Shown: positions 12,995 to 41,317 of the stretch, in pieces | Position numbering within the stretch: position 1 is the stretch's first letter | How the letters are laid out: each line of letters begins with the position of its first letter | DNA from: Isoetes taiwanensis | Taxonomy: Eukaryota; Streptophyta; Lycopodiopsida; Isoetales; Isoetaceae | Length of the DNA stretch: 64,000 nt | NCBI GenBank assembly: GCA_021234155.1 | Contig: JAJEKV010000059.1 | Coordinates: 2,682,182 to 2,746,181 of the forward strand | Direction of reading: 5' to 3' | Translations under genes and position numbers: made by a program | Notes under the pieces: model-generated | The model's database searches: none | Told to the model about the DNA's origin: nothing | What the model saw: the letters and a program-made list of their open reading frames with translations, nothing else

Positions 12995-15217
12995 GCAGTT
13001 CTCAAAAATATCCATCAGTTCGAGGAGACTTGTCACGTTCTCCCTTTTGAGCTTGGCAGAGAAAATTCCGAAGAATGCATCTATATCATCATGAGTGGGT
13101 AAAAGCATGATAAAGGTGTCCACTTTTGGAACCTGCCAAAGTACATACACTAGGTACTCCAAAAACTGGTACTTTCTTTTTTCTTTCTCATGAAAATCAG
13201 TTTAAAAAATTCAAAATAAATGTCTATGACACATTGAGATTTGATGCTATGTGAAACACAAATCTAATAGAGACTAAAAAAGTTGCATCAACCCTTAAAA
13301 TCAATACTTATTTAGACATTACATAGTTCCAAAAGTACTCAGTGCTGGGTACCTTTTTAGGTACTTTTTTAGTCCCTAAAAAGTACTTTTTAAGGGACAC
13401 TTTAACATGCTTTTACCCGAGTGTGCCCAACCATCATGAATCCCACTTTCACAATCTTGAAGACTCCCACTGCAGTCAAGTATGACATTGCCCCAAACAT
13501 CCATCTATTCTTGTTTTCTTTCCAGCAGTTGTCCAACTGAACACATAGCTCCTCTGGCAGTTGTTTCTCATTTATGGGGAACTCATCCCAAGTCCTCCTT
13601 GCTTCTTTCAACACCTTCGATGTGAGCTCATTTATCTGCCTTTGATTGAGCTGCTAGTCATCCATCAAAGCATCAAAGATGGGGGCTGAGGGAGAAAACC
13701 TCCTCCCTCTATAGAGCCCCTCTCAAGTGTTCTCAAGCACTTGAAAATAGAGCTCACATGGATATTCGGATCGTCTCTCCATAGATCAAGCACAATGACC
13801 ATATGTGCCAGTTCCATGGCCATGAGTGAGGACACCTGCCAAGCTTACTTTCATTTGAAAAGCATTCTGGCATCGCTTGGGCAAAGGGTCTAGCTTTGGC
13901 AAGAAAGTCTTCTGCTGGTCCATCTTATCGTGTATTATGCACAAGTATTTGTCAGGTTGCATTTGTGAAAAGGTTCGCCATTGCCAATATAGTTGTCTAC
14001 ATGATACTTAGTCTGATTGGTGATCTACCATTTGCTCTCTGATTGCCATCCTTTCTTTCTCTATTGCAGTTGATGCAAGTGTATCCTTCAGCTGAATGCA
14101 GGTGTTGCACTTCGAGAAAGGCATTTGTTGCAAGACTACCACGTCCGAGAGTGAGTTTTCCATATCCTGCTAAATGTTGATTGTGAAAGTGTTCGACCTC
14201 CTATAGTTTCTAGAATAGCATTCATCTCTTTGAGGCACTCTTTCTGGATGTAATGTTGTGGCAACACCCTCTGCACTAGTTGGACACCATGCTCGTTCAC
14301 CTTGGATCTATGTGGCATAGATTGGGACATGTACCTGACAAAGCTCTCAAACACTGCAATGGCCCTCAAAGTGTTTGCCCTAGGCTTCAAAATCATGTAA
14401 TTGCCATACTGGAACAACTGATGCCCTCTTTTAACTTGTTCCCAGTATCTGTAAAATGATGTCTTGCTAAGACCAAGAATCCATCTTATTGCATTCATGC
14501 ATACCTTATGTTCTCTCAACAGATAAAGTAATATTCCTGTGTCTTTAGATGTGCTGCATTTCTATACAATGAGCATACGAAATTAATCATGTCCTTTTGG
14601 AGCTGACCAATGTACTGTGACCTTATGTCAACTAGCTCATCCACACTATATTTAATTGTGCAATCTAGACTGCAGCACTCCTGTCCCCTCACTGCCTCTA
14701 AGTTTTCCTTAGTTGCTGCTATGCTTCCTTTCCTTTTCAAGTATTTGGCACTTCTAGGCCTCTTAGGCACTTGTGGTTGTCTCTTATAAAAACAGTAGCG
14801 CCTCTTCCTTGTAATCAGAGGATGCACATCCATTACCATGTCTTCTGCATGGCCAGAGTTGTTCCTTGGGGTATCTTGAGATGGGCCTTCTAGGTGGAGA
14901 CCTTTCTTATCTTTGATATGTTTAATTGGCCATCTCAGTTGAGTTTGGAACTCTAGAAATCCCGAGCACACAATGCACTCACTGGAGGCCCCCTGGGACA
15001 TAATTGTGTCAAGCTGGATAAGGAGTTTCCCAACACCAACACCCAAGTGGTCCTCTCCAAGCCTCTCGTCATTGACACTATCGGATGGATCCACGGCCGT
15101 TATGATACCCTCTGCAAAAGCCTCCCCATTGCATGGGTGCACCAATAAGCATTCCATCTTTATCCATTGGAGCCTAGGACATTGCTTTCCTTGGGCCTTG
15201 TAAGATTCGGAAGCTAC
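12995..15217 (-). pseudogene. Transposase-like gene (DUF7869-type, HTHxDxD), copy 1, disrupted
   Basis: Minus-strand coding pieces: 15157-14516 (extends to a splice acceptor near 15217), 14519-14136, about 13860-13640, 13614-13402, and 13090-12995. Landmarks in order: VHPCNGEAF, an ITAVDPSDSVNDE block, a basic KRRYCF block, a Cys cluster near CCSLDC, a short helix-turn-helix-like GLSKTSFYRYWEQ, then QRVLPQHYIQKECL. The end of the gene reads VGHT, is cut by a 322-bp MITE, and resumes HDDIDAFFG. From memory VGHTHEDID is a hallmark of a large uncharacterised eukaryotic family (DUF7869) thought to be transposon-related. The chromovirus cuts the gene at 12994. A stop near 13650 and a stop/frameshift around 14160-14510 also break it. 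It matches the copy at 32648-34917 along most of its length. Confidence 0.7.
13097..13418. mobile_element. 322-bp MITE inside the transposase-like gene
   Basis: Ends are GGGTAAAAGCATG at 13097 and CATGCTTTTACCC at 13418, with the inverted match extending imperfectly for about 25 bases. Both sides carry GAGT (13093-13096 and 13419-13422), a 4-bp target duplication. Removing the element and one GAGT joins the host reading frame across its conserved motif. Superfamily unknown; a 4-bp duplication argues against hAT and Mutator. Confidence 0.85.
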
Positions 15218-16552: not shown

Positions 16553-17085
16553 TTGTCGGGTGCAAGGGGCCATTCTCAACTCGCGAGTCGGGAAGGCCCA
16601 ATCTATCTAGCAGCAGGTCGAGAATCCCCTAATTCTCCACCATCTGCAAGCATTCTCGACTCGCGATGCCCCCATACTGCAACCCAATCTGCATTTTCGA
16701 CTCGCGAGTCGAGAATGCCTCAAATCTCTCACCATCTGCATGCATTCTCGACTCGCAAGTCGAGAATGCACCCATATTGCAACTCAAGACTGCATTCTCG
16801 ACTCATGAGCCGGGAATCCCCCACTTCTCTCACCATCTCGAACCATTCTCAACCGGCATTCTCGACTAGCGAGCCGATAATGCCCCACTCAATCACCATT
16901 TGCCAGCATTCTCGACTGGCGAGTCGAGAATGCCCCCTCTCTCACCATCTTCCAGGATTCTCGACTCGCCAGTCGAGAATGCCCCAGTCTCTCGCCGTCT
17001 GCCAGCATTCTCGACTCTAGAGTCGAGAATGCCCGATTCTCTCATCATCTACCAGCATTCTTGACTCGCCAATCGAGAATGCCCC
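16553..17085. repeat. Minisatellite of about 55-60 bp units centred on a Ser-type palindrome (CTCGACTCGCGAGTCGAG)
   Basis: About ten copies of the 18-bp palindrome CTCGACTCGCGAGTCGAG or one- to three-base variants, each followed by AATGCCCC and a CTCTCACCATCTGCCAGCATT-like spacer. Because the unit length is often near a multiple of three, an artificial frame of 155 codons runs through it; its repetitive translation is not evidence for a protein. Confidence 0.85.
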
Positions 17086-18060
17086 TTTCATGTGATCCAA
17101 CAGGGCTCATGCGATGTGATCCAACAGGGCTCATGCGAGTCGAGAACTGGTGGTCCAGTGATGCATTCCACACTCGCTGCCCACACGTGCCTTCCCCCCG
17201 TCTGAGTTGAGCTCCTTCGAACCATAGGCCTCGAATGTTCCGAAGGGGATCGGCTCAGAGGGGGCAAAGGCATGTAAGTGCATCGAATGGTGGATGAATC
17301 TTTCCCAAGGCCCATGTGACTGAGGTCTGTAGATGCTCTTGGTTATTCTCGCCTCCTGAGTCGAGAATAGGTCGTCCAGTGATGCAGTCCACACTCGCTG
17401 CCCACACATGCCTTCCTGCCATCTAAGTTGAGCTCCTTCGAACCATAGGCATCGAATATTCCAAAGGGGATCGGCTCATACGGGGCGATGACATGTAGGT
17501 ATATCGAATGGTGGATGAATCTTTCCAAGGCCCCTGTGCCCGAGGTCTATAGATGCTCCTCCTTATTCTCGACTCGCGAGTCGAGAATAGGTCGTCCAGT
17601 GATGCATTCCAGACTCGCTTCCCACTCATGCCTACTTCCCGTATAAGTTGAGCTCCTTCGAACCATAGGCATCGAATGTTCCAAAGGGGATCTTCTCAGA
17701 CGGCAAGAAGGCATATAGGTGTCCAATGCCCCTGTGCCTAAGGTCTATAGATGGTCCTCCTTATTCTCGACTCGCGAGTCGAGAATAGATCATCCAGTGA
17801 TGCATTCCACATTCGCTTCCCACTCATGCCTACTTCCCGTCTTAGAGGAGCTCCTTCAAACCATAGGCGTCGAATGTTCCGAAGGGGATCTTCTCAAACA
17901 GGAAGAAGGCATGTAGGTGTATTGAATGGTGGATGAATCCTTCCGAACGCCCCTGTGCCTGAGTAGATGGTCCTGGTTATTCTCGACTCGCGAGTCGAGA
18001 AAACTACATGGAGTCATGCATTCCACACTCCCTACCCACACATGCCTTCCCTTGCCGGCA
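17086..18060. repeat. Tandem array of about 197-223-bp units carrying the same palindrome
   Basis: Four to five units. Each contains the palindrome (at about 17345 degenerate, 17565-17588, 17763-17786, 17978-17998), then GTCGTCCAGTGATGCATTCC, CACTCGCTGCCCAC, GAGCTCCTTCGAACCATAGG, TCGAATGTTCCGAAGGGGAT and GAATGGTGGATGAATC. In the two best units the palindrome is perfect over 26 bases, the arms extending as TATTCTC. Open frames on either strand are repeats of each other and are left out. Confidence 0.85.
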
Positions 18061-18332
18061 CCTCTAGCTTGCTTTTTGGACTAAAGACCGAAGCAAGAGG
18101 GAGCTTTCTCCGGGCTCTTTCTAGATGGAATGACTTAACTAAAATTCGACCTGAACATGCCTCAGCCTCGTTGATTGCATGTTCCCTTGCTGAGCACGTT
18201 CTAGCACCGCCACAATGACAATGCTGAAATACGCTCAACAAGGAAACAAGCAGTCGAACAGACTCCAAGCAGATCTCGAAGTAGACCCCCTAAACCCGTT
18301 TAAAAAGTTCTAACTAATATGGAAGGATAGAC
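18061..18332. other. Boundary region with a weak possible exon
   Basis: A plus-strand frame to 18218 reads through from the array into LLFGLKTEARGSFLRALSR and ends at a stop. It has a coding-like composition but no motif, and its upstream part is satellite. I cannot support it as a gene. Confidence 0.3.
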
Positions 18333-18572
18333 TCACCTCTTTCTTAAGTATTCTTTGGGCCATTGTATAACAGATCCTGCAGCCTTCCGGATGGTCGTTG
18401 CTTCTTCGGTTGGCCTTATAAGCAAAGCATCTCCATTTATAACTTGTGTTATGGCGATCCTTGAGTATCCTTTCTCCATTGCACTGCAGTGGAGCAGGCC
18501 AGTATCCTCTAGCTCGTCCCCGATTGCAACCTTCGCCCCATCCGCAAGCAGCAGATTGACTAGCATATCCAA
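18333..18572 (-). pseudogene. DUF8039-like module from a plant transposon-related gene
   Basis: The 79-codon frame reads AKVAIGDELEDTG, then a short beta-rich stretch, then DALLIRPTEEATTIRKAAGS and VIQWPKEYL. This order (a changed G-x-L start, alternating hydrophobic strand, RP, TI..A.GS.I.WP) resembles the small DUF8039 module that I recall near the end of plant transposon-associated proteins. No neighbouring exon was recognised, so I treat it as a fragment. A splice acceptor upstream of the first Met is possible. Confidence 0.5.
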
Positions 18573-18655
18573 AACCTCAAGTTACACAACGTTATGATCT
18601 TGCTTCATAATCAAAGAAGAGCTTACCGCTTCTTCGCACCATATCTAGAAATCTG

Positions 18656-19182
18656 TTGAAGGAAAAGAACGATCCTCCAAGGCCCCTCACAGACTGGGGA
18701 TTTGAAGTGGGTGTCTGGTCATGTATGGCGAAGCGGAATGTACTCGGTGTTTGTTCTCGGGGTGATTGGAGTCCCTCTACTGAAGTGCAAGTTTATCTGG
18801 GGCCAAGAAAAGGCAGACTTTGTGAGGGACCTGGACACGTCTGTCACAAAAGGCACGGAGATAATGGTAAAAAAATTGGAAAGGGTTTATGAGGCCTACC
18901 AGGGATATGGTAAACATAACACTGTTATTATAGATGACAGCGCCTACAAGTGTTACCATAACTCGGACAAACACGATCCTGGCTAAGAGCTATCGACCAG
19001 AAGAATATGAAATAGATACTTGGCTCGCATACGACCTCGTTCCAGTGTTGGCTGAGGCCAGGTTTTCCATTCTGGTGGCCGATGTAATCAGGAGGTATCC
19101 GAATCTCGAGGAGATTGACCAGCATCGCATCTCCTTCATGAAAGCCACGGACGAGAAATTTTATGGTGATAAGGATACTTGA
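18656..19182 (+). pseudogene. FCP1/NIF-type CTD phosphatase-like domain, two frameshifts
   Basis: Three plus-strand frames line up as one domain. The first gives FEVGVWSCMAKRNV, the second VPLLKCKFIWGQEKADF, then KKLERVYEAY and NTVIIDDSAYKCYHN, the third ILAKSYRPEEYE, then DTWLAYDLVPVL. In the FCP1/SCP family this is the order WSSA, F.WDQ, DL..VW, TVLIDDSP and the C-terminal helix pair. IDDS holds the late catalytic-site Asp residues of this HAD-type phosphatase. The N-terminal DLDETL is not visible. Shifts occur near 18745 and 18975. I infer a decayed gene or base errors; the family call rests on the IDDS block and its spacing. Confidence 0.6.
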
Positions 19183-19223
19183 ATGTAATTATTTTGTAAC
19201 ATTGTGGAATATGTAGATGAACT

Positions 19224-19440
19224 GTATCATTTGTGACATATGAATTACTTGTATAATGATGTGGCATGGTCTTTCTCGACTCGCGAGTCGAGAAATGAAC
19301 CATTTGTATGGAATGAATGATCTTCAGCGTTTATGGTATAGGAATTACATGCACAAAGTTGTGGCATGGTGTTTCTCGACTCGCGAGTCGGGAAATGAAC
19401 CATTTGTATGGAATGAATGACTTCAACGTCTATCGTATTT
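19224..19440. repeat. Two direct repeats of about 104 bp, each with the CTCGACTCGCGAGTCGAG palindrome
   Basis: Units share GTGGCATGGT, the palindrome (19275-19292 perfect, 19377-19394 with one change), AAATGAACCATTTGTATGG and GAATGA. Around the first one the palindrome is perfect over 24 bases with TTT and AAA outer arms, unlike the TATT and AATA arms of the 17-18 kb array. Confidence 0.8.
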
Positions 19441-19740: not shown

Positions 19741-21133
19741 GCTGTTTTCTAACAGCCTCACAATTATTTCTTTGCTTTTAATACCTTGAAGTTGTGTCCA
19801 AGGCACAATGCCCATACTTTTTTGTTTTGCTTCGGAATTCTTCTTTGGTTTCTTGCTCGTGCTGCTCTGTTGCTCCTTTAATTCTGATTCTTTACATGCA
19901 AAAAATTCTTTCTTGCAAGTCCCAGGCCTAAAAAAGGTAATTGGAATACTTAGTAAAGCAACCAACTGAAGAAGCACACATTTGCAGCTCTAATGATCAC
20001 GGTATGAATTTATACCAAAAGGGCTTGCGGCATAAATTTATACTGACAGGGTTTGCGGTATAAGTTTATACCGATAAGGCTTGAGGTATTAACTTACATC
20101 GATAGAGCTTGCGGTATAAATTTATACCGCAAGCCTCATCGGTATAAATTTACACCGCAAGCGTCAAAGGTATAAATTCATACCGCAAAGCCTCCGACGG
20201 TATAAATTAACTGTCGAGCCTCTACATTAAAAAATGAGTACCGTCGAGCCTCGATGGTATAAATTTATACCGTCGAGCCTCTACAGTAAAAAAATTAGTA
20301 CCGTCGAGCCTCGATGGTATAAATTTATACCGCTTTAAAGTCTTCCCTATTCAGGCTCTTGAATTCAAGAAACTCCCTGTGCATGGATCGAATTTTATCT
20401 ATTACTCTCATCTTTAATCCAAAGTCATTGTCAAGGTTATGGCTAACTGCAATGACTTTTGCTTCTTCATCAGTAAGACCTACATAGATGTGGGTTTCCA
20501 CTGTTTTCTAAATCTCATTTCTTTTTTCTTCTTTTGATAACTCCTTTCTAGCCTTGTAACTGTGTGTGTCACCAAGCAGGTAATAGGTATAGTCTTCAAA
20601 ATCTGCCTTCTTGTATTGGCTCAATAACTGTATTTGATTTTTGTCTACCATGACCACAAAAGGCGAGACATGAACATGCAAGTTTCTATGCATTCTCTGC
20701 TTTAGTATGGGCACATGTGCTGCGTACAGTTTTCTCACCTGTAGCACCCTAACCCCGTCTTCATTTTTAGGTGGCCTTTTAATGGTGCTTATACTTAACG
20801 AGATTGTTTGCTTATGTAGCTTTGTCTTGTTAATCTTTTTGAGAATGGCACTTGATCTGTCAGCAGGCTTAACTACTATGTCAGCTCCAGGCGCTTTGCT
20901 AGCTGCTTCCATGGATTCCTCTAATGTCAAAGCTTTCATTTTTTTGGGCTTCTTCGCAGGTGGTTCTGTGGTCAAGACAAGCTTCTAGCTGCAGTCATCA
21001 CCGGCACCTCTTCCTCGTACTCTCGTTCTGGGGAGTTTTCTTCTAAGTTCTCTTTTTCAAGAGGGTACCACAATCCTTTCACCACCCTTGGGTCTTCACA
21101 AAAAACTACAGGCTGGATAATGTCAATAATATC
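19738..21133 (-). pseudogene. ParB/Srx-like domain gene, truncated second copy
   Basis: In minus sense: a splice acceptor TTCTTGCAG, then an exon from 21133 reading DIIDIIQPVVFCEDPRVV and an acidic stretch; a one-base shift near 20985; then frame 20975-20508 with a basic KKPKKMK block, STIKRPPK, VRKLYAAHVPILKQRM, VVMVDKNQ and the ParB-type GDTHSYKARKEL. A TAG at 20508-20510 replaces a Trp codon of the other copy. The frame then runs on with [10 protein letters not shown] and VSHNLDND to about 20334, where a palindromic array begins. The next homologous piece (IVPWTQLQGIKSKE, 19820-19740) is followed by unrelated sequence. No methyltransferase part remains. It is clearly decayed and clearly homologous to the gene at 23833-32150. 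Confidence 0.85.
20000..20333. repeat. Array of GGTATAAATTTATACC palindromes
   Basis: About ten copies, spaced about 30-60 bases, of the 16-bp palindrome GGTATAAATTTATACC or degenerate forms, alternately flanked by GCTTGCG or CCGTCGAGCCTC words. Some extend to GCGGTATAAATTTATACCGC. The array begins directly where the ParB-type reading frame stops. Confidence 0.88.
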
Positions 21134-21279
21134 CTGCAAGAACACCAAACAATGTTTTAATTAAATGCACTTATTTTATAAATGCATTTAAAAGATTCCT
21201 TTAAAAAATTTGAACAAAGTTTAAAAAGGGCCCTTTTTTTTCAAGACTTTCAAATGTTAATGCATGACAGTTTAAATAT
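21134..21279. other. Short spacer or intron of the ParB copy
   Basis: AT-rich sequence between the first recognised exon of the truncated ParB copy and the fold-back element. It is likely intron. No other structure is seen. Confidence 0.4.
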
Positions 21280-22958
21280 AAGTGTGATTTATCTGCGTTT
21301 CGAGATAAGCAGATAAATCCGCTTCTTGAGGCTAGTTGGCGTGTCCCCCTTCGAGTATTTAAGTCTGCCTCCCTCGCCTTTCTCCCCATCAGCCGTTTCG
21401 AGCCTTCTCCTCCATCGGTCGCTGGTTCCCCCACCCCTCCCACCCTTTGATGCCTTTGGTTCTCCTTTAGTTTGGCCTTTTCCGCTTTGAGTGTTTTCCT
21501 TGTTGGGTCTGTTATTGCTTTCCTTTCTCTGTTCTTGCTTAGAGGTAGCCTCTACTATTTGCGTATAGTGGTTCTTTAGGTCCTCGTGCGACATTGGTGG
21601 CCCTTATCTTGAGTCTGGTTTTTGTAGAGACTCTTTGGTAGGTGCAGTAGCTTCCCCCTTTGGACATGCTTTGGTGTATAGGTCTTGCTTGCTTGGAGGG
21701 TTTTTGGATGTTGTGATGGCCCTCGTGTCGGTGTCATACCAGTTCTCACGCCGATCAGTGGGGAGGACTTGGGTATTGTGGTGGCCATCGTGCCTTGAAT
21801 CTTGGCCCGCCTTCTAGGGTTTGGGAGCCTTTGTGCTTGGGGTAGGGCCCGCGTGCCCGACTGGTTGCTTTGAAGGCCCTCGTGCCTGGGCGAGGGCCCT
21901 CATGCCCGTGGTTGTCGGCCCTTGTGCCCTTGTACTCTTTTGTGCACTTTTGTGATGGCCCTCGTGCCAGGTGGTAGGCCCTCGTGCCTGTGCGGTGGCC
22001 TGGTGGCCCGAGATGATTTCTGTTTTGCAGGCTTACGCGATGCTGCGGTTGGACGGGTTGCTTTGGAGGCCCTCGTGCCTGGGGAAGGGCCCTCGTGCCC
22101 GATGGTCGTTGGACGGGTGGTTTTGCAGGTTTAGGTTGGGAGCGGTTTATATGGAGGGATGTGTCGTCCCAGTGGCTTCCTCAGGTGGGGTCGTCGCTAT
22201 GCGTAGCCTGCAAAACAGAAATCATCTCGGGCCACCAGGCCACCGCACAGGCACGAGGGCCTACCACCTGGCACGAGGGCCATCACAAAAGTGCACAAAA
22301 GAGTACAAGGGCACAAGGGCCGACAACCACGGGCATGAGGGCCCTCCCCCAGGCACGAGGGCCTTCAAAGCAACCAGTCGGGCATGCGGGCTCTACCCCA
22401 AGCACAAAGGCTCCCAAACCCTAGAAGGCGGGCCAAGGTTCAAGGCACGATGGCCACCACAATACCCAAGTCCTCCCCACTGATCGGCGTGAGAACTGGT
22501 ATGACACCGACACGAGGGCCATCACAACATCCAAAAACCCTCCAAGCAAGCAAGACCTATACACCAAAGCATGTCCAAAGGGGGAAGCTACTGCACCTAC
22601 CAAAGAGTCTCTACAAAAACCAGACTCAAGATAAGGGCCACCAACGTCGCACGAGGACCTAAAGAACCACTATATGCAAATAGTAGAGGCTACCTCTAAG
22701 CAAGAACAGAGAAAGGAAAGCAATAACAGACCCAACAAGGAAAACACTCAAAGCGGAAAAGGCCAAACTAAAGGAGAACCAAAGGCATCAAAGGGTGGGA
22801 GGGGTGGGGGAACCAGCGACCGATGGAGGAGAAGGCTCGAAACGGCTGATGGGGAGAAAGGCGAGGGAGGCAGACTTAAATACTCGAAGGGGGACACGCC
22901 AACTAGCCTCAAGAAGCGGATTTATCTGCTTATCTCGAAACGCAGATAAATCACACTT
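21280..22958. mobile_element. Fold-back element with arms of about 755 bp
   Basis: Bases 21280 to about 22036 (starting AAGTGTGATTTATCTGCG) are repeated in reverse orientation from about 22203 to 22958, with a loop of about 165 bases. The arms are nearly identical: the same reading frames appear on opposite strands. Inside the arms GGCCCTCGTGCC-like words repeat many times. There is no transposase. The outer flanks do not show an obvious duplication. It could be a fold-back transposon or an inverted duplication; an assembly artefact is possible because the arms are so similar. Confidence 0.75.
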
Positions 22959-23203
22959 CTAGAGCCTAGTTGCACCTAGCAACACCCAACAACACCAACA
23001 ACCATGCTGTTGCTTGTACGTAGGTATCGGTCTTGAGTAGCTTTGGCCTTTAGGTCAACCTGTCCGTCAGTACCTTGTTAGGTTTGGCTGCTGCAGTGTG
23101 AAGCCTCGGAGAGGAGGTCCTTAGGTTCTTTCTTTTCTGCCTCTTTTTTTCAGCATGGTTGTTGGTGTTGTTGGGTGTTGCTAGGTGCAACTAGGCTCTA
23201 GAA
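22957..23203. repeat. Short inverted repeat element next to the fold-back
   Basis: Arms of about 50 bases: CTAGAGCCTAGTTGCACC to CAACCATGCTG on the left, the reverse complement ending CTCTAGAA at 23203, with about 145 bases between. It abuts the large fold-back at 22958. It may be a second MITE or the outer part of a composite. Confidence 0.7.
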
Positions 23204-23832: not shown

Positions 23833-24408
23833 TTAATAATCAATAGGTTCTTCTTCATCAGTTCCATTCTTCTCTTTCTCCTTTTCAAGGCCAATGTTTA
23901 CCAAAGGAATTGTTGATGAAGCCCTGGGAGTCTCTTCAAGAATTGTAATAGCAGGATCAAGCTCTGCAAAAACAATCTTCTCATCAGGCCTACCACTAGG
24001 TGGTGGCTGAATCTCAGAGAAAGTTTCTGTTAGAGTTCCATTATAGCTTTTGTCGCCTAACTCTTGATTTTCATCATGCAAGGACTCAAAAGAACTTATT
24101 CTTGATTTTATGAAACCAACATTTTCTTGATCAATATCAACACAGATAACGTTTCGTCCTTTCTTAAGGGCACAGATAGCAGTTGTTCCTGATCCAGAAA
24201 AAGCATCCAGCACCCAGTCACCTGGTCTTGAAAACCAAGTAATAAGCTTAGAAATTAACTCCTGGGGCTTTTGATAATGTGACACTATTGTCCCTGTCTC
24301 TGAGGATCTTTCAAATTTTGAAGCATAGCTGGATAACAAAACACGTTGCTTGGTGGTTGAGTTTCATCTGTTGTATTGTAATGCTGCATACTCCTTTTAC
24401 CATCAAGA
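23833..24408 (-). CDS. Exon e: methyltransferase motifs X and I, acidic tail
   Basis: The acceptor TTTATAG at 24409-24410 leaves one base to complete the codon left open by exon d. It reads [22 protein letters not shown], then a one-base shift near 24330, then [18 protein letters not shown] (motif X), [14 protein letters not shown] (motif I, the S-adenosylmethionine pocket) and [10 protein letters not shown] (motif II, Asp binding the ribose). The tail is acidic, ending EEEPIDY and TAA. The SNVFCYP to QKP spacing is that of N4/N6 methylases. Two frames share the shift, so a deletion or a base error is likely. Confidence 0.85.
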
Positions 24409-27400
24409 CTATAAACAAGATTACTTATTAAACGGGAGAGTAACATTGCTCCCGTTTCAAAGATTCCCTTCTAAAAAACGGCACTCTTTCAAAAGTGGCA
24501 CTTTTTAGAAAATGTTCATCACTTTGAGAAAACTAAAATTTATATTATGCAATTTTAGCCCCCCTACAACTCGACAACTTTGCATCTGAACACGGTTGCA
24601 TATTAAACGAGAGTGTTCCAGCACTCCCGTTTAAAGATTCCCTTCTAAAAAATATATGCACCATTCGAAATGGACCATTAAGGGGTCGTGTCCAAAAAAT
24701 CATAGTATTTACAATTTAATACATGCTATTTTAGCAGAAAATTATTTTTTCATCACGGGTCCAACAAATCAACACTTTAAAATAGAACTTTTAGGGGTTA
24801 AGTCCATAACACTATGGTGATTAAGATTTAATATATGCCATTTTGACTGCATTTTATTTTTTCTGGCACTGGGTTATTGTGAACCCTGAATTTAGGGGAA
24901 TATAGTTTTCAACACAAAATTGAAAAAAGGTCTGTAATAAAAGTTCTAGTATTTTCAAAATTTGAAGATAAAATCTTCAGAACTACCCACAAAATTTACA
25001 CTTAGTGAGCAAAGTGTATTCTGGAATACTTGCAAAACATACACTTAGTGAGCAAGTGTATTCCGGAATACACTTTTTCTCTACTTTAGAGTGTACAGTA
25101 AAGTGTGAGGACTGCTGAACGAGGGATCCAGCTCATCATTATTTTCATTTAGAAACAAAGACATGAAAAAAAAATATCAAACCTTTTTTGTATTTTGGAA
25201 TACACTTCGTTTTCTGTAATTGCAAAAGAGAAAAATAAACCAACATCAACTAGGCTTTTTGGCATTTTTAATAAGCCTGCGATTTTGATGCCTCGATTAT
25301 TTACATGACCTTGGTGAGTTTTTTGGTTTTTTTTGTAGGGATACGGGAATACGGATTTTAAATAATCTTTGTCTGGTTTGTGGTGACCAGGGATACTGGG
25401 TCATGGTCAAAAAAGAATTTGGGAAATGTATTCTGGAATACGTTTTGTATTCCAGAATAGGATTTTGCTATCGACGGGAGAGGGGGCGAATTTTTTTTCT
25501 CGCCTCCTCTGGTTTGATGCGGCGATAATCCTGCTCGGTGATCTACATCGACTCCATCTTGGTGTTTTGAAACCCTGAGTGTTGCTGGCGTCTGCTGGGT
25601 GATCTACATCGACTCCAGTTTCGTGTTCTAAAACCCTAAGTGTTGATGGCGGCTCTAGTCTGTTGCAGTGGCGGCTGTTGCGGTTGAAGATCAAGATCTT
25701 AGCTTCAGGGCAGAAATGGTTAGGTAAAGACCTCAATGTTTATTATAATAGACTGGTACATATGGATGAAGCTCGTTTGCCGCATCAAGCCTTGTTAGAA
25801 TCACAGTCAGCAGTAGGTCACAATGGATGGTACCAACAACTTGTCTCATGGTCAGAATGGTGGGGCATTAGTCTTGTAGATTTGCCAGATAGTGATGTGG
25901 GCTTGCGAGATCTAGTAATGGACAAAACATGGCAAAAACTATGGAGTCAACCAGGAGTTAAGATGGAATTCTATCAGAAGGAAGTGAATCCAATGTTGGT
26001 ATATGTGGAACAAGAGTATTTGCATGCACATGTAGGGTTGAGGAAGAGACGGCTCATATCACAAATGAGATTAAGTAGCCATCATCTAGAGATAGAAGCA
26101 GGAAGAGGGAATACACCACGTGAACTTCGATTTTGTCCTTGCTGCCGTGAAGCTCAAATTGAAGATGAACATCATGCTTTTCTAAAATGTAATATGTTTA
26201 CGGACTTGCGAAAGAAGTATAACATTGATGGAGCTAATTTTTCTGAGTTTCTTTCATTGGAGCCGACACTTCTAGGAGACTTTCTCCAAGAGTGGTGGGA
26301 GCTCCGAAAGGAAACTCTAGATTTGAACCAATATATCGATGAGATTGAGGCTCAAGGCCTCATTTAGTTGTATTATGCCGCCTATGGACCTGGGGGTCTC
26401 AAAGGGCGTGACAAATAAATAAATAAATAAATAAATAAATGTCTGAATTTTTTTTCTTGCTTAGTTAGAATGGATGTCTCGCTAGTCATGAAAGTGCACA
26501 ACATGGCCATTGCACTAGAAATTGTCAGCATACTAGATTTTCCAAACTAGAGAGTAGAGGCGTTCATTTTTCTGCACAAAGGTTCTGCCGTGTATTTCCA
26601 TGTCCAGATTCATGCATATGCTTACATGTTTTACAATCAGAGTGTTTAGTGTGCTTATGATGCATGCAATGCTTATTGAATGTAAAACCTGATGTGCCTA
26701 TGTTCTGTATTACAATTAACAAGTTACAAGAACTTTCAGATATCCATGAGAATTCCTCTAGTGAGAGAATAATCTCATCTGCAAAACAGTTTAATCTCTA
26801 GTGGTTAAATGATGACAATGTTTGTGATTGTGATAGGCACATCGTGGTTGCTTTGGGGTCATCTACAATGTCAGCAATTTCTTGTTTGAATGTAACTCCT
26901 TCAGTCTACTTTCTGCATCTCTCCATCCTTTTATGAAAAACGTTTTCTGGCAGCGTATTTTTCTCGTTTTTTCAACTGCTCATGAAACATACTCATTCTG
27001 TGTATTTCTGAAGCTCTAAAAAAATTTTACAAATGTTTTTTGTAGCTTAGCTTTGGAGAATGCATTTAACGCTATCAAATGATTCTGAAGGCCTTGTTTG
27101 GAGGCGGACATCCACACAATGTTATCAGCATAAGCAAAATTGGGATGCGCGATTGTGCAAGCATGGAGCCTTCTCCACCCAAAGTCTGCAAAAAGGACTC
27201 CAGTTCATCAACATAAAAGCCAAATAACGCAGGGAAATCTTCCTTTGTGAAGTGCCATTTGTGTATCGAATTTTCCCCTCACCATGTTTGTCAAGGTATT
27301 TTTATGAACAGTCATTTGATGAAACAGTATGTGTCTGGTTCTCATATTTGATGAGTTTTGGAAGTCAGATAGGTTCCGAGAAGAGGCAATGGTGTCAGTT

Positions 27401-30400
27401 TCCAGATTGCAGAGCTGAGTTTTAAGTTTATTTCCACTATGATTAAGATGTGATATTGTTAAAAACATCCCAAGATGGAAGAATTGGCAGGAATCGGAAA
27501 ATTTTCTTCTTTGTATCGTGTGGCTGTTTCCCAAATGTCCAATCTCTCCAGAAGTAGAATCATAATATTGATAAGTTGCAAGATGTAGAATTGTAGATTG
27601 ATAAGTTGCAAAAAGTTCAAATGCATTGCTAAAGTGGAAAGAATTCAAATAGAAAAATTATGGGCTTGTATTCATGGAGTAGACATGGTAGTTGTAGCAC
27701 TAATACCAACGATTCTAGATATCAAAACGGTTTCTCATTACATTTTTAGTAGAAACTAATATGATATTGAAAACTGTAACAACTTCCCACATTTTCCACG
27801 CATCTGGTTAAACATCTAAATGGAAATTGCAAGTGTGGAAGCATAGTGTGGAAGCACGAACACAAGCATGGAAAATTTGGGAGGTTTGGGAGAGTTAAAG
27901 GGCAAATTCAGAAGCAGGGGTTGCAGGGGTTACGTCTGTGAAAAAGATGGCAATGTTGATCTCTTTGTCAAAAATTTTGCTTTGATTTACACAAAACTTA
28001 AGCATCCATGTTCTAGACCCATGTCTATTTTTGCACAAAGACTAGGACATAACACCATGACTTAGGCTTTTGAATATTTGAGGTTCATACTAAGTCTCCA
28101 TTTATTCTTCAAAGATTCCAAAGATGCAGGATGGCCATTATAACGAGTGTGGGGTGCAGGTGATTTGAAAATATCCCATAAAACATGTAAAATAGACCTG
28201 AACATTTAGTTCACTGTACATCTCTTTCACCTTTGAAACATGTGAACGATCTGCCTTTCCATAATTATCCTAACATGCCAACAGTCAAATGTTAGGGCAA
28301 TTTCTGCATGATTGACTGATTGCTTCAAAGCCTACCTTGAGAATTGCTTTTTGTTCAGTGTTGGCATGTTGCAAAGCTTGGACAATTAACCACGAACATT
28401 TTGCATCTTCTATGTCAGTACCAATCTGAAAACATTAAAATGTTCATCAGAAGTTCAGAACGTGAATAGTGAATTAATATACGAGTAAAACTTATTTCAA
28501 CACCTTCCCAATAAGCTATGGGGTACCAAAGCAGTCCAGATAGTCATCCTGCATGTGACGCCATTTAAGAATTAAATAAATAGACAAGAGAAGGAAGATT
28601 GTTGTAGTATTGCTCATAAAGCAACCTAGTACTTGTTTGAAGTGATAAGATGAAACTTAGATCTAACCAGCTCTGAATTTCCTAGATCTTTAATGCTCGG
28701 TGATGGAAGAAAGAGCCATGCCAGATTCAAAGAACCGATGAGCATGATCCGATTCAAACCCTAAACCCTAATCGACCAACAGCAGCAGCCAAAGGTTCTG
28801 ATCCCATATGCGCCATCATGACTTCTTGTGAGCCGAAGTAGCAGAGGCCGAATCACACCTAATCGCCAGATCAGGAAAAAAAAGGTCGCCTCCCCTCCCG
28901 TCTGCAAAAAACTTATTCTGGAATACAAAACGTATTCTGGAATACGTTTTCCGCTTTTCGTTGTTTCCACGACCCAGTATCCCCCCTTTAAAATTTTTTT
29001 TCCTCCCTACTAAAATGTTTAAAAAATTGCATGAAAGCCCAGTACTTAAATTGTAGAGGTTGCAGCATGTGCAGAGGTTGCAAGCAAAGTGTATTCTGGA
29101 ATACACTTTGCCTCATGCGCGACGGGCAAAGTGTATTCTGGAATACACATAAGTTGTAAATTTTATATGTGATTGTGGAGATTTTATCTTCAACTTTTGA
29201 ATATACGAAATTTTTGTTACAGATTTTATTTTCATTATTGTAAAAACTTGTACTCCCTTAATTTTAGGGTTCTCTCAAAAAACATTGTTCAAAAAAATTT
29301 AAGTTGTAAAAAAAAACGTCACTTTTAAATGGTATTTTTTCCCTCTGCACAAAATAAATTGCTATTTTGGGGGGGTCAAAACATCATTTTATGTCTTAAA
29401 ACTTTTTTTTGCCCTATTTTGACCCCTTTTTTATTAAAAAAAGGGAATCTTTGAGGAATATTCCTTTTGCTCCCGTTTCAATGTTATTCTCCCGTTTAAT
29501 AAGTTATCTTGTTTATAATATCCAATATGGAGATACTCTAACTTACTGATTGTTCGAGAAAAAATGGGCAGTATATAGGGGAGGCTTAGCAATTGTTCTT
29601 GAACAGTGGCCAGCAAACCCATGGTTGGGATATTCATAGTTGCCTGACGATCTTATTTTGTTTTGTTTTATTTTGTTTTGTTACAATTTTCCACTTGTTT
29701 CTTATGACGGGTTTACTTCCCCGGGTCTTACTTGGGCTTCGGCCCCTTGCATGTACTCGTCCCATAACCCGCTGGGTTCCCGTGGACGTTAAAATCTTAT
29801 CTTATCTTATCTTATCTTATCCTATCTTTAACATTTGTTTTTATTCTGCAAGAACTAGAAATCAAAAAAATGAATGGTGCATTTCAAAATGGAAACATGT
29901 TTCAACTTACCACACACAACCCTCAAAACCAACATTGCAAATTATAGATAGTGGCTTTATCACAGACATTGTTTGAACATCTGAATGAAATAATATTACT
30001 CTCCAGTAGGAGGAGGTAGTGACCTCTTTAAATCCTTCCAGGAATGCTTCCACCTCTTTCCAAGTAAAAGCCTCATCATCAAAAGGACTATCCTTTATCT
30101 TGAAGCCATAAGGTATATTAGCGACGCATAATGTGAAGTTACGTGATTGAACTACTTGTTTCAATATCCTGCAGTCTCCAACTATGGCCTTGTATAATGC
30201 ATCTTGATTGAAAAGATAGAAATTTTCAAGGTCATTAGCTGACGCAGCTAGAGCAGCTTGACCTTCTGCTTGTGCTTTAAGTTTTTGCCTTTCTTCTTTA
30301 CAGCTTCTTACAAGTTTTAAAAACCCAGCAGGCAATCCATTAGACTTTTTCTACAAAAACAAGTCATTCTTTAGTACGAACATGATGTTTATGAAGTCCG

Positions 30401-32150
30401 AATAAAAGAAGTTGAGAAAGTAAACCCACTTGAGAACTTATAATCTAATTTTGAAGTACTAACCCATTTACTGAAGTTCGAGGCATATTCTTTAATCAAA
30501 GCATCTCTGGTTGTCAGCGGATAATTTGCTCTGCAGTCTTCCCAAGCATCCAGGTTAAGTGCTTTTAGTAGCTCTAGCTAGCAAGTTACAAGATCTTTTT
30601 GTCTGTACATGAGAATAAAACATTTTTAAAACATTTGTACTGATTAATCTCAAGAGCAAACAACTTACTGCTTTGCTTCATTTGCCATTTCTTCTAGAGT
30701 AAACTCCTTAGCCACGACTTTCTCCAGAAGATGAACTAGTGGCTCTTTGTCCTTAATGCCTTGAAGAGAAATCCATGGAACAATAGTCATCTCCTTCACC
30801 TTAGGCTTAGATAATTTCTTGCTTGCCTTAGGCGCTTTTTCCGTCACAGATTTAGTCTTTAGTTGATTATCTTGAAACATGGAAAAGATTTTTTCTTGAA
30901 GTTCCCAAATCTATGAAAACGCAAACTATTAATGCCAAAGGTTTCCTTAAATTTAAATGATTTTCTTTAATGAGCAAAAGAAACCACAAGATTACAACGA
31001 CCACAAATCTATGCACTCTTTTGGAAGAGTGAACTATCCTTAAGTAATCTAGATGCAAATAGTACACCATTGTTGACTATAGGAATTCCAACTTCTAAGA
31101 TTTTTTTGACAAGTAAGTAATGTACATAAGTGCACGCAGTATGAATTCATACACTAGCTTTTTAACACAAGCAATAAACACGCCAACTTGAGTTTAGATG
31201 CAAACCTTTCCACTTCTGAAAGCTAGTTGAAAATAGTTGTCAAACTTTTTGAAGCATGGATGGGTAACAGGTCACTATCATACTGAAGGCAACATTCTGT
31301 TACACAAGTTTCCTTGAGCTTTTGAAGAAGCGGGCCATTCTTTCTGAAGTCTTCACCGTAGCTTTGCTCAAAGTTTATGACTTTCCGATGCATAAAAAGT
31401 ATCTGATCAATGAAACTCATTTGGAGGCGATACTCATTATCAACATTATGAGATACGACTAAAACTTCTAAAACTTTTGCTTCTTCATCAGTTAGACCAA
31501 CATAAACCTTGGCTTCTACCACTTTCCAAGCAGGATTTTTGTTGTCTTCTTTCATTAGTTCCTTCCTTGCTTTATAGTTGTGTGTTCCACCCACGACACA
31601 ATATCGATAGTACTCAAAGCCAGCCTTATTGTACTCTCTTAGAGATGTACATTGATTTGGGTCAACCATAACAATCAGAGGAGTGACTACTGCTTCTTGA
31701 TTAGCCCTCATTCTATCTTTTAAAATGTCAATGTGAGAAGCATACAACTTTCTAACTTGCAAAGGTCTTTGTCCAGAAGCATCTTTAGGAGGTCTTTTGA
31801 TTGTAGCTGTGGAGAGCCTCATCGTGTCAACAACACGTTTGGTAGCATTGATTTGGTTCAGCAGCTTTGTGCTCCTATCAACTTCCTTACTTTTAAGTAC
31901 ACATCCAGGAGCTCTTTTCTTGTCCTTGGGCACTTCTGAACCCTCAATGCGTTGTACCTTCCTCTTCCTTTGCGAAAAAAATGTCTTTAACTTGCTTTCT
32001 TTTGTTTCTAAGCAAGTCCTTATCTAGTGCTCTAGCTAATCCCCCACCATCTTCTTCTTCCTCTTCCTCTTCCTCTTCCTCTTCCTCTTCCTCTTCCTCT
32101 TCCTCTTCCTCTTCCTCTTCCTCTTCCTCTTCCTCTTCTTCTACAGTCAC
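23833..32150 (-). CDS. ParB/Srx-like domain fused to a beta-class N4/N6 DNA methyltransferase (split gene)
   Basis: Minus-strand gene in at least five exons (described separately). Order: Glu tract, ParB-like domain, linker, helical region, methyltransferase motif IV, then motifs X and I. In the beta class of DNA amino-methyltransferases motif IV precedes motif I, and this order is kept. Exon joints 30474 to 30350 and 29911 to 24408 use GT-AG borders and match in phase, which supports one transcript. ParB-methylase fusions are known from phages and bacterial mobile elements; in a plant this suggests acquired or transposon-borne DNA modification. Predicted role: amino-methylation of adenine or cytosine in DNA, in the nucleus (inferred). 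Weak points: a shift between the Glu-tract frame and the ParB frame, shifts near 31255 and 24330, and Ile in the active-site motif (NIPY). It could be a recent pseudogene, an old domesticated gene, or intact with base errors. Confidence 0.75.
25735..26441 (+). mobile_element. 5'-truncated L1-like LINE, 3' end only
   Basis: Plus-strand frame to 26367 (stop TAG) covers the C-terminus of ORF2: [41 protein letters not shown], then the zinc knuckle [19 protein letters not shown]. The same region is in the LINEs at 49038-53051 and 53489-57661. The 3' end has a GGACCTGGGGGTCT hairpin and an (AAAT)n tail at 26411-26441. The 5' limit is approximate. Confidence 0.88.
27010..27245 (-). pseudogene. Old LINE reverse transcriptase remnant
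   Basis: Minus-strand reading gives [19 protein letters not shown] and, after a shift, [18 protein letters not shown]. These match LFGLFIDELE and FADDIVLIS of the complete LINE at 53489-57661. The second catalytic Asp is replaced by Asn (YADN). It lies inside the long inverted-repeat element. Confidence 0.7.
27246..28880. other. Interior of the inverted-repeat element, no gene recognised
   Basis: AT-rich with a 146-codon minus frame at 27208-27648 lacking any motif or convincing composition. The part at 28640-28880 resembles the left arm only loosely. Confidence 0.4.
29706..29829 (+). mobile_element. LINE 3' end with (CTTAT)n tail
   Basis: GTCTTACTTGGGCTTCGGCC, a palindromic GGGTTCCCG-type stretch, GTGGACGTTAAAA, then CTTAT repeated about eight times to 29829. 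The layout (short conserved 3' untranslated end plus simple-repeat tail) is that of a severely truncated LINE or a LINE-dependent SINE. The duplicated target was not found. Confidence 0.55.
29911..30350 (-). CDS. Exon d: methyltransferase motif IV region
   Basis: Begins after TTTTTGTAG in phase 0 and ends at the donor GTAAGTTG with two bases over. It encodes a helix rich in Lys/Glu/Ala, then [28 protein letters not shown], and [20 protein letters not shown]. The pattern GD, hydrophobic strand, then NIPY matches the GD...L and [DNS]PP[YFW] catalytic block of amino-methyltransferases, with Ile in place of the first Pro. The following acidic patch and long helix fit motifs V to VII. Confidence 0.75.
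30474..30576 (-). CDS. Exon c: helical region
   Basis: Encodes [18 protein letters not shown], then [17 protein letters not shown], ending at the donor GTTAGT in phase 0. The upstream acceptor lies in a GCTAGCTAG run; I could not fix its exact base or the phase with exon b. Confidence 0.6.
30669..30910 (-). CDS. Exon b: basic linker
   Basis: Borders: acceptor TTTTCATAG and donor GTAAGTTG. It encodes [13 protein letters not shown], a Lys/Ser/Ala-rich linker, then [19 protein letters not shown]. The VPW..LQGIK part is also present in the truncated paralogue (19740-19820), which confirms that the segment belongs to the gene. Confidence 0.75.
31206..32150 (-). CDS. Exon a: Glu tract and ParB/Srx-like domain
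   Basis: The frame from 31933 (open upstream to about 31980 as a basic [18 protein letters not shown] stretch) reads [36 protein letters not shown], then [15 protein letters not shown] and [12 protein letters not shown] followed by an Asn-containing [11 protein letters not shown]. That is the ParB N-terminal pattern: a strand giving value, then G-x-H-x-x-x-A, then a strand and the LTDEEA-N helix. ParB proteins bind CTP and DNA partners; some relatives cut DNA. The upstream Glu tract (32150-31944) is coded by a CTTCCT repeat and is in another frame. The exon end near 31206 (AAGTGGAAAG then GTTTGC) needs a one-base shift near 31255 to give [12 protein letters not shown]. Paralogue at 20340-21133. 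Confidence 0.78.
32051..32141 (-). repeat. (CTTCCT)n microsatellite encoding a Glu tract
   Basis: About 14 hexamer copies. On the minus strand one frame gives only Glu and ends MTVEEE at its start; the other frames give Lys-Arg or Gly-Arg. Because all three frames are open, slippage here could shift the frame ahead of the ParB domain. Confidence 0.9.
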
Positions 32151-32647: not shown

Positions 32648-34917
32648 CTATAGAAACATAATTATTTGAACTTCTTTGCCATATCCCTTCTTTAGGAACT
32701 GCCACTTAAAGGTGTCCTTCTGCATTTGATTAAGATTTGAATGCACTTCTACGATTTGAAGTCGAAAGGAACATAATAAGCGTAAGCACAATATATGTTT
32801 AGGAAGCCTTTTATAATAGAATCTCGTGATCTTGCTCAAAGCTCCTATATAGTTAGAACATTGCCCTTGCAAATCTAAGAAACTACCGACAAATAATCTG
32901 CCTTGTCGGATTCCATGGGTTGCTATGTCCCCGGGGGATTCACCTTTATCATATGAGTATATGCCACCTGCGTGCTCAAGGTGAGAAGAAACACCCCTAT
33001 ATACGTACGAAAAAGTGTTGGAAAAACACCCCTTCCATGGAGAAAATACACTAGAATGTCAGTAAGAGGAGGATTTAGACCCCTAGTATACGTACGAAAA
33101 CATCGAGAAAAAAACCCCTTCCATACACTCTCTAGGTTTATACGGATCTTCTGGGTGAATCCCCCGGGGCTATGTCGAACATAAGAAGGTGGTTAAGTTT
33201 TGCAAAATGCAATACAAAGTCCCTCTAAAAGAACTGGTGTAAAGGAGTTGGCAATCACTTTTCGTTAAGACAATGGAGGTGTCAATCTTCAAAGAGTTTG
33301 TTATTTGCCATAGATATTTGCAAAAATGGATGTTTTGTAGCAGTGTTCCAAAGCAGTCTCTAGAAGTTGATCAATGAGAAGCGGAAGTAAGGGGCTAGCC
33401 CCTTACCTCTTTCAAGATTTCTTAGACACTTGAAAATGGATCCTATGTGGAAGTTAGATCCATCCTCCCACATGTCTAGGACAAAATGGCCATAAGTACC
33501 AGCTCCATGACCATGAGTCAACATTCCAGCCAGGCTAACCTTCAACTGAAAAGCATTTCCACATGACTTTGGCATGGGATCAAGCCTTGGTAGAAATGTC
33601 TTGTGCTGGTCCATCTTGTCATGAATAATGCATAGAAACTGGCCCGGTTTCATTTTTGAGAATGTTCTGCACTGCCAGTATAAAGACCGGCATGTCTTCT
33701 GTTCAATCTGATGATCTGTGATTTGCTGCCTTATACACATTCTCTCATACTCTACTTGGGTGGAAGCAAGCAACTCTTTGAGCTCGATACATAAATTGCA
33801 CTTTGAGAAGGGCATGAACTTGGCAACCACAACATCCGGGAAATATTTAGCCCACATTCTACTAAACCCGGCCTGTGATAGTTCCCGTCCTCCTAATGAT
33901 GGTAGAATTGCATTGAGCTCGGCAAGGCACTCCTTCTGAATGTAGTGCTGTGGTAATACCCTTTGAGTAACCCGGATCTGACTCTCATTCACTTTGTGCT
34001 TGTGTGGCATAGATTGTGCCATGAATCTGACAAAATGCTCGAACGCGCTCACTGCTAGCAAGGTATTTGATCTGGGTTTTTGGGTCAATTGGTTCGAGTG
34101 CATATACACCCTTGTACCATCATCATACTGCTCCTTATATCTATAGAAAGAGGTTTTACCTATGCACGTAATCCATATTAGTGCTTTATAACACACCTTC
34201 CTACTCCCACATGGATACAACAGCTCTCCTGTCACATTGTCGTAATGTGAAGCACCAAACATTGTATACATTGAGTTAACCCTTCGTTCATGTGACATTC
34301 CCCAGAATTTTATTCTAATGTCAATGAGCTCACTTACTGGGTACGGAGAGATGCAATTGAGACTACAACATGCCTTCTCTTTAATCTTCTTCATATTGTC
34401 TTTTGTAGGTGCCCTTTTCTCTTCTCTAGACAGGGTCATCATGGTCTTCTGCTTCTTCCCAGTCTTCCTGACATGAAAGGTATATCTCCTCTTCCTAATC
34501 TGGACATGCTTAAAATTACATGAGCCCTCCTCTATTGTATCTGCATGCTCCACAGGTGGCTTGCCTCCATCATTGGGGGCTTGCAGACATTGACCATCGT
34601 CTTGTCTGAGGTATGCAATAGGCCATCTTAACTGAGTTCCAACCTCAACAACATTTGAACATACAAGGCAATCACTGGAAGCACTAACACCTGTCAACCT
34701 ATTCTCATATATTATGAGCATGCTGACTATTCCCACACCCAGATGATCATCTCCCAGAGCCTCATCATTCACACAATCACTTGGATCAACTGCTGTGATG
34801 ATTCCCTTAGCAAAGGTCTCCCCATTGCATGGGTGCACTATACCACAAGATGCCCTATACCAACTAGTCCTCCCTCCTTTAACTGCATCACTGGATTCCT
34901 TGGAAGACCCAAAAGCA
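32648..34917 (-). pseudogene. Transposase-like gene (DUF7869-type), copy 2, MITE-disrupted
   Basis: The main frame 34838-33360 is open for 492 codons and reads upstream beyond its apparent GTG start to about 34917 (YRASCGIVHPCNG). Landmarks: ITAVDPSDCVNDE, KRRYTFH, CCSLNC, GKTSFYRYKEQ (helix-turn-helix-like), QRVLPQHYIQKECL, FPDVVVAKFMPFSKCNLC, then CIIHDKMDQHKTFLPRLDP with several acidic residues, and GTYGHFVLDMW, IFKCLRNLERG. Cys pairs suggest metal binding. Downstream of an intron the frame reading LLMFDIATHG is cut by a MITE at 32930 and continues to SNLNQMQKDTFKWQFLKKGY and a stop at 32648. Function as a transposase or integrase-fold nuclease is inferred from the family, not shown. I do not see the HTHxDxD block here. 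Confidence 0.68.
32930..33168. mobile_element. MITE, CCCGGGGGATTCAC family, copy 1
   Basis: 239 bases with perfect ends CCCGGGGGATTCAC and GTGAATCCCCCGGG, flanked by identical 8-bp repeats GCTATGTC (32922-32929 and 33169-33176). Inside, TACGTACGAAAA occurs twice. Two more copies are in this window at 48615-48849 and 60103-60349. The 8-bp duplication fits a hAT-type transposase. Confidence 0.93.
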
Positions 34918-35400
34918 CCAAAAGCACTTTACATCCATATAACAATACAGTCATCAATTTGATTGAGTACTTACAGGTGGAATTGTGTTCACTCAATCAC
35001 AGACCTACAGCAAAATGCTGTACCGCTACAACCTTTGAAGTGGACTGATTAGATATTCAAATAAGGCAGTCTACGCTTACGCTTTCATGTGCATGGTTTT
35101 TTCAAAGCAACACAATTACTCTAGATTGCAGAAATTCCATGAAGGATCAAATGGCAGCTCTAAGAGGTCAGTTGCACAATGGAATTCGTCAATCTATAAA
35201 AATGCAATCTGTAAATGCACGCAAGTTCAAAAGAGAAAAAACAGGGTAGATTACATTATTCAGAAGCTTCCTTTCATAAAAAGGTTACAAACACGGTAGA
35301 TTACGTTAAATTCAGAAGCTTCCTTTCATAAAAAGGTTGGTAGTTTTGGACCTTGCATGCCAAGAATGAATTGCAAAGAGTTTTCTCATGTAGGAAACAA
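34918..35400. other. No gene recognised; short direct repeat
   Basis: The words AAGCTTCCTTTCATAAAAAG and GTTACAAACACGGTAGATTA-like sequence recur about 55 bases apart near 35265-35335. Open frames are short. Confidence 0.4.
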
Positions 35401-41191: not shown

Positions 41192-41317
41192 TGTAACGGT
41201 CCTAGCCGCTAAGAGTCCAGTTTATCGTGCATATTTGCATGTAAGAAGATTATTAATAATCTTCTTACATGCAAATATGCACGATAAACTGGACTCTTAG
41301 CGGCTAGGACCGTTACA
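41192..41317. mobile_element. Perfect 126-bp palindrome flanked by a 5-bp duplication
   Basis: Two 63-base arms with no mismatch and no loop: TGTAACGGTCCTAGCCGCTA at the left end, its reverse complement at the right end, meeting at ATTATT/AATAAT. Flanks are TTTTC on both sides (41187-41191, 41318-41322). Ends TGTAACGG and CCGTTACA look like LTR tips of Ty3/gypsy elements, and the 5-bp duplication fits retroviral-type integrase. Confidence 0.9.

Follow-up and report, generated by a model that had tools for sequence, protein, structure and literature searches.

Accessory genes that join a ParB-like domain to a DNA methyltransferase are already known from algal transposons (PMC12477816). As described in that source, the transposon family Sola1-1_Ec32 (21.5 kb) of the brown alga Ectocarpus carries such a gene, and further transposon-borne cases are cited there from green and red algae; the Ectocarpus authors suggest that the ParB-methyltransferase binds and marks its own element (PMC12477816). 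Here we describe a ParB-methyltransferase gene on the minus strand, from 32142 to 23836, of the 64,000-nucleotide stretch presented above (contig JAJEKV010000059.1; hereafter the window). To judge by its sequence, this gene (copy 1) is decayed and was the accessory gene of a DNA transposon with two genes and a length of approximately 9 to 9.5 kb, an element that is numerous in the source genome. Like Sola1-1_Ec32, the element is a DNA transposon in which a ParB-like domain and an N4C/N6A-type methyltransferase are encoded on the strand opposite to the putative transposase gene; unlike Sola1-1_Ec32, and compared by description only, it has the length given above and a partner gene of the DUF7869 type, it resides in what is probably a land plant, it is numerous, and it contains arrays of palindromes (PMC12477816). 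What is new here is the pairing with DUF7869, the 4-bp target-site duplications, the high copy number in what is probably a land plant, and the palindrome arrays as predicted target. In the account that we consider probable, copy 1 is the dead accessory gene of this transposon, whose ParB-like part would bind the palindromes and whose methyltransferase would mark its own element.

In copy 1, a ParB-like exon precedes the methyltransferase exons. The ParB/Srx-like exon, represented by an open reading frame (ORF) at 31226-32023 (minus strand), matched PHROG 1033, 'ParB-like partition protein', with E = 7e-7, and shares 83-84% identity with three copies at other places in the genome. The C-terminal exon (23836-24363) matched Pfam N6_N4_Mtase (PF01555) with E = 2e-16, and a second PF01555 match had E = 2e-17. 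Beta-class amino-methyltransferases carry their motifs in the order IV, X, I, with [DNS]-x-P-[YFW]. In copy 1 this order is found as NIPYG (motif IV, exon 4), QKP (motif X) and DAFSGSGTT (motif I, both in exon 5). A preliminary description of this DNA had proposed a plant-type split gene joining a ParB/Srx-like domain to a beta-class amino-methyltransferase; the two domain matches and the motif order bear out the fusion, and the presence of spliceosomal introns bears out the split gene.

The limits of exons and introns, all on the minus strand, were set by our own reading of the sequence against the exon series of relatives. The ParB exon has a glutamate-rich 5' part (GAGGAA repeat, 32050-32142) in a different frame from the ORF, and its last part, up to the donor at 31206, is in a shifted frame; near 32093 (approximately 32.1 kb) the DNA ceases to match other copies. 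Intron 1 (30911-31205) contains one palindrome GTATGAATTCATAC at 31139-31152, and its joint, 31206/30910, fell on re-reading at the position first proposed. It is followed by exon 2 (30669-30910; 91-94% identity with its counterpart in two other copies), intron 2 (30668-30603), exon 3 (30464-30602) and exon 4 (29911-30350), with the NIPYG motif at 30105-30119. For intron 3, the acceptor at 30350 given in the preliminary description stands, but its donor at 30474 had to be re-placed after 30464. The true intron 4 is approximately 65 bp long (29846-29910); its length is approximately 60 bp in the three closest relatives and approximately 240 bp in copies of the C1040 type. Exon 5 truly starts at 29820-29845 (RIKTNVKDR near 29845, compared with the related loci L003-L007 introduced below and with protein P0003), continues at 29514-29550, where it ends in a TATA target duplication, and resumes at 24413 with SLDGKRSM, matching proteins P0001 to P0003. 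This remainder (23836-24413) holds QKP, DAFSGSGTT, VDID (motif II) and the stop.

Exon 5 of copy 1 is thus broken twice, by an insert of approximately 0.26 kb (29551-29819, minus strand, ends approximate; homology to other copies stops at 29826) and by a nested DNA transposon of 5.1 kb (24414-29513). The latter has inverted ends beginning AACAAGAT... and a TATA target duplication; its 39-bp arms, TATA included, are 95% alike. An intron of 5.5 kb joining 29911 to 24408, as proposed at first, was rejected: homology lies on either side of the 24414-29513 transposon, and in the three closest relatives in the genome exon 5 runs uninterrupted, approximately 60 bp behind exon 4. The agreement in phase reported across that span is uninformative, because most of the span is the nested transposon within exon 5. 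The nested element itself has AACAAG ends and a 4-bp duplication (TATA) resembling those of its host element, and six GTATTCYGGAATAC palindromes lie in its outer parts; it is perhaps a relative of the host element with another palindrome.

Copy 1 is damaged further: the frame breaks at about 31960, 31245 and 24300, exon 3 contains an in-frame TAG near 30578, and NIPYG replaces DIPYG. On its sequence, copy 1 is a dead copy. Its 3' terminus, an AACAATG... end at 21148-21277 (minus strand) that matches the 3' ends of three other copies at 83-85%, is separated from the gene by an insert in the 3' flank (21278-23202), which is mostly a 757-bp inverted repeat. The repeat spans 21277-22961 and has arms that are 99% alike with 171 bp between them. 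Spliceosomal introns around prokaryote-type domains would also be expected of a host gene that came from bacteria and is functional at the window locus; the frame breaks, the stop, the mutated catalytic motif and the 5.1-kb insertion at this locus, together with the very many further copies in the genome, leave that explanation with next to no credence.

These copies were sought in the source genome of 1,658,258,908 bases (1.66 Gb). The copy numbers are first-look candidates, not proven copies, and the best 144 or 150 per family were scored. There were 2,850 candidates for the ParB exon (best 144 scored, including the window copy), 1,443 for the methyltransferase family (best 150 scored, all 150 above the cut-off) and 9,902 for DUF7869 (best 150 scored), the last with none in 14 control genomes. 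Since 144 genome rows were scored, the window copy among them, the ParB-methyltransferase gene is not a chance match. The two genes of the element lie close together far beyond expectation: a listed DUF7869 row was found within 10 kb of a ParB row for 18 of the 144 listed rows (0.26 expected) and within 10 kb of a methyltransferase row for 18 of the 150 listed rows (0.27 expected), and in each case 17 of the 18 were head-to-head. A methyltransferase row lay within 6 kb of a ParB row for at least 4 of 144, among the matches listed.

We read ten copies, namely the three nearest relatives of the window copy, one with both exon rows listed, and six taken at fixed steps of the ParB list. A head-to-head DUF7869 gene was present in nine of the ten (exception: C1059), as was exon 5 (exception: L037); the head-to-head layout is not present in copy 1, the truncated copy of the window. 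A scan of the ten stretches for AACAA[CGT] ends flanked by identical 4-bp sequences gave one pair each in C1034 (9,466 bp, duplication CTAC) and C1037 (9,548 bp, ATTG), but no pair in the remaining eight; inspection of the homologous ends in L035 gave a third element, of 8,984 bp with the duplication CCAA. In these three elements, 24, 24 and 28 of 30 bases, respectively, agree between the inverted ends. The target-site duplication of the Sola superfamily is 4 bp long, and this Sola-type trait, a 4-bp duplication with inverted ends, was accordingly seen in 3 of the 10 stretches. Inverted ends, 4-bp duplications and the many copies uphold the early suspicion that the gene might be part of a mobile element, while the idea of a single horizontally gained gene gives way to that of one among very many transposon copies.

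Purifying selection on the coding sequence is seen in relatives. In 10 pairs of own-genome copies, the ratio of non-synonymous to synonymous differences (pN/pS) in the ParB exon was 0.04-0.33. An xIPYG motif was found in 13 relatives, and in 12 of these it reads DIPYG (7/8 own copies and 5/5 of the loci L003-L007); no xIPYG motif was found in 2 own-genome copies. The loci L003-L007 came from a scan of prokaryote genome contigs, in which 47 pattern matches led to five confirmed loci, all in one bin. The bin is labelled as an uncultured Trichormus, a public cyanobacterial metagenome-assembled genome (CAKZGI01). Because the L007 gene has GT-AG introns and the other loci share its exon series, we take the five to be, apparently, eukaryotic contigs inside the Trichormus bin; their source, we infer, is perhaps the fern Azolla. 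ParB and methyltransferase exons are present in all five loci, with stops in L003 and a ParB exon free of stops in L004 to L007. A DUF7869 gene stands head-to-head with the ParB-methyltransferase gene in L006 and L007, the two of two loci with enough flank, and matched PF25273 with E = 3e-51 and 1.5e-52, respectively. Among L003-L007, synonymous sites differ by 55-96% and non-synonymous sites by 3-20%; since the resulting pN/pS is 0.04-0.25, the sequences indicate that selection has kept both proteins, DUF7869 and ParB-methyltransferase, in these relatives. The PHROG ParB match was absent for L003, L006 and L007. A region ahead of the ParB part (residues approximately 70-170 of the ORF L007:3262-4959) is alike in L004-L007; it had no Pfam family above the cut-off in L006 and L007, the two scanned.

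Fold searches with the ParB part started from a weak structure model, from which the ParB/Srx matches derive. Against the PDB, the top ten comprised four ParB-type and six sulfiredoxin (Srx) chains, and in a second look ParB-N and Noc stood on top with Srx close after. Against viral structures, the best two matches were 'chromosome partitioning' proteins (E = 1e-4 and 5e-4); a phage 'DNA methylase' (Mycobacterium phage Vincenzo) followed at rank 7, and the matches included a 'ParB-like nuclease domain' protein and a ParB/Sulfiredoxin protein of Orpheovirus, a giant virus. An earlier model built from two window sequences (predicted local distance difference test, pLDDT, 38) had been uninformative, with no ParB chain among the best 50 of 156 fold matches. 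By sequence, the C-terminus led to beta-class methyltransferases in the PDB, where nothing usable was found for the ParB part or DUF7869. Pfam gave no match for the ParB-like part, and a large protein database gave none to the whole joined protein or to the ParB exon; the methyltransferase part had six matches there, the best three being 57-62% identical over 38-44% of the query. As in phage ParB-methyltransferase fusions, a ParB-like part precedes a DNA methylase; for Vincenzo the fusion is deduced from the match and the protein's name. A difference from these fusions is that, with E up to 1 allowed, no sequence match to the ParB exon came from 50,697 phage records; 546 records matched the methyltransferase exon, each below 60% identity. 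Viral contigs gave two distant methyltransferases in ORFs that, from reading the ORF list, are apparently not fused to ParB.

The Orpheovirus match raises the question whether a large DNA virus with a ParB-methyltransferase had integrated and left this remnant. Such a remnant fits poorly with the element ends, the 4-bp duplications and the copy number, and in IMG/VR no relative was confirmed for the ParB exon, the ParB alignment or the DUF7869 protein; we regard a viral origin of this kind as very improbable. The DUF7869 protein, by its position and abundance, is probably the transposase of the element. No literature naming DUF7869 was found, and PMC12477816 was the only paper recognised on ParB-methyltransferases in transposons, in a search that was incomplete, so that these absences weigh little.

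A 14-bp palindrome, GTATRAATTYATAC, recurs throughout the non-coding parts of the element. The ten stretches contain 130 exact sites, 1 of them within a coding block, and the whole genome contains 12,879 sites, versus 40 for a reversed control pattern. Simulated intron-1 sequence of the same dinucleotide composition contained at most 0.005 palindromes per intron. Their placement follows the subfamilies. The window-type subfamily (C1034, C1037 and C1059) has palindromes in intron 1 and in the spacer that separates the two genes. Copies of the larger subfamily have them there too, and additionally in intron 4 and behind the methyltransferase gene, except that L037, which is without exon 4 or 5, has them in the spacer and intron 1. 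The window-type subfamily mostly uses GTATGAATTCATAC and the larger subfamily mostly GTATAAATTTATAC. L003-L007 have zero GTATRAATTYATAC, GTATGAATTCATAC or GTATAAATTTATAC sites; the between-gene spacer of L004, L006 and L007 has GTCGATGCnnnGCATCGAC palindromes, the L003 spacer contains seemingly degenerate palindromes, and in L005 hardly any spacer is in view. Subfamilies perhaps change their palindrome together with their protein (GTATGAATTCATAC and GTATAAATTTATAC; GTCGATGCnnnGCATCGAC in L004, L006 and L007).

This arrangement recalls the anti-silencing protein VANC of the Arabidopsis VANDAL transposons, described as reading motifs that form arrays within its introns and upstream of its gene (PMC5735166). 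As in that description, an accessory protein encoded by a transposable element is accompanied by short motifs in non-coding parts of the element, including an intron of its own gene, and related elements differ in motif; unlike VANC, which causes loss of DNA methylation, the protein described here has a methyltransferase domain and a ParB/Srx-like fold and is a predicted binder (PMC5735166). The palindromes might instead be sites of a DUF7869 transposase, with the ParB-methyltransferase acting on element DNA in general or merely regulating the promoter. Many palindromes do lie in the between-gene spacer, within reach of either protein, related elements have another palindrome in that same spacer, and repeats serve as transposase sites in other DNA transposons. 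However, intron 1 has sites as well, as do intron 4 and the DNA behind the gene in the larger subfamily, whereas for a transposase one would expect sites at the two ends; moreover, palindromes of roughly such length are typical binding sites of ParB proteins. We hold this assignment to the transposase to be possible, though doubtful.

On binding of the palindromes by the ParB-like part, the favoured account, the element would work as follows. The DUF7869 protein would act as its transposase. The ParB/Srx-like part would bind the palindromes of intron 1 and of the promoter spacer that the two genes share; the larger subfamily would offer it further sites in intron 4 and immediately behind the gene. 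This part would bring the C-terminal amino-methyltransferase to its own element, where the enzyme would write a mark by which element DNA could be told from host DNA. Such a mark might keep the promoter active against host silencing, tune the expression of the element's own genes, or steer the transposase. The methyltransferase is most likely an N6-adenine rather than an N4-cytosine enzyme, because its motif IV has the form D-x-P-Y (D-I-P-Y). It can be compared with N4CMT of bdelloid rotifers, likewise a bacterial-type amino-methyltransferase domain in a eukaryote, in whose description a Marchantia N4-methylcytosine (4mC) methyltransferase is also mentioned (PMC8885841). As described there, N4CMT is a host gene with a chromodomain and SPPY, and the Marchantia enzyme is a host gene as well; here the methyltransferase has D-I-P-Y, is fused to ParB and is borne by a transposon (PMC8885841). 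The SPPY motif of the N4CMT type was not found in the relatives, which have D-I-P-Y.

The same two domains could form another kind of pair, in which the ParB-like part acts as a nuclease or as a CTPase clamp and makes up, with the methyltransferase, a restriction-modification or addiction-like module that protects marked elements. One fold match is indeed named 'ParB-like nuclease domain', and the methyltransferase could protect the very sites that are attacked. The thousands of palindrome sites in one genome would argue against strong activity on unmarked sites, and we consider such a module unlikely. The full self-marking system, a ParB-like reader of a transposon palindrome fused to an N6-adenine writer that places a bacterial-type mark on very many copies, is put forward as a tentative proposal, somewhat short of even chances. 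If it holds, the host genome should contain genuine enzymatic N6-methyladenine (6mA) confined to one transposon class. Whether 6mA or 4mC is a real mark in plants is disputed, and a methyltransferase that is encoded by a transposon and kept by purifying selection, with 12,879 candidate binding sites in one genome, says where to look. The element would suggest a second means, beside VANC, for a transposon to identify copies of itself and manage its epigenetic state, and protein and motif may change in step across element subfamilies.

The window contains a second, shorter copy (copy 2, 20984-19747, minus strand), which, at 52% identity to copy 1, was the first sign of a repeat. Its ParB exon (20334-20984) belongs to the second subfamily, contains a stop and is 75% identical at the DNA level to the C1040 copy. 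In place of intron 1, GTATAAATTTATAC palindromes and close variants of them form an array (20000-20332), which is followed by an exon 2 fragment (19747-19924), behind which no methyltransferase exon was found. Between the two window copies, pN/pS was 0.37 over 126 codons. Several perfect TTCTCGACTCGCGAGTCGAGAA-type palindromes, some in tandem arrays, occupy 16617-19438, between the copy 2 fragment and a second decayed DUF7869-like gene (13417-15217, minus strand). On the other side of copy 1, a DUF7869-like ORF of another subfamily, cut short (33363-34928, minus strand), matched PF25273 with E = 7e-4, below the cut-off, and is 21-23% identical to the L006/L007 gene. It was rejected as the DUF7869 partner of copy 1 on account of its orientation, which is not head-to-head, and its subfamily, and is thus probably not the partner that belonged to this copy. 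Farther along, at 41192-41317, lies a perfect 126-bp palindrome with 63-bp arms and no loop.

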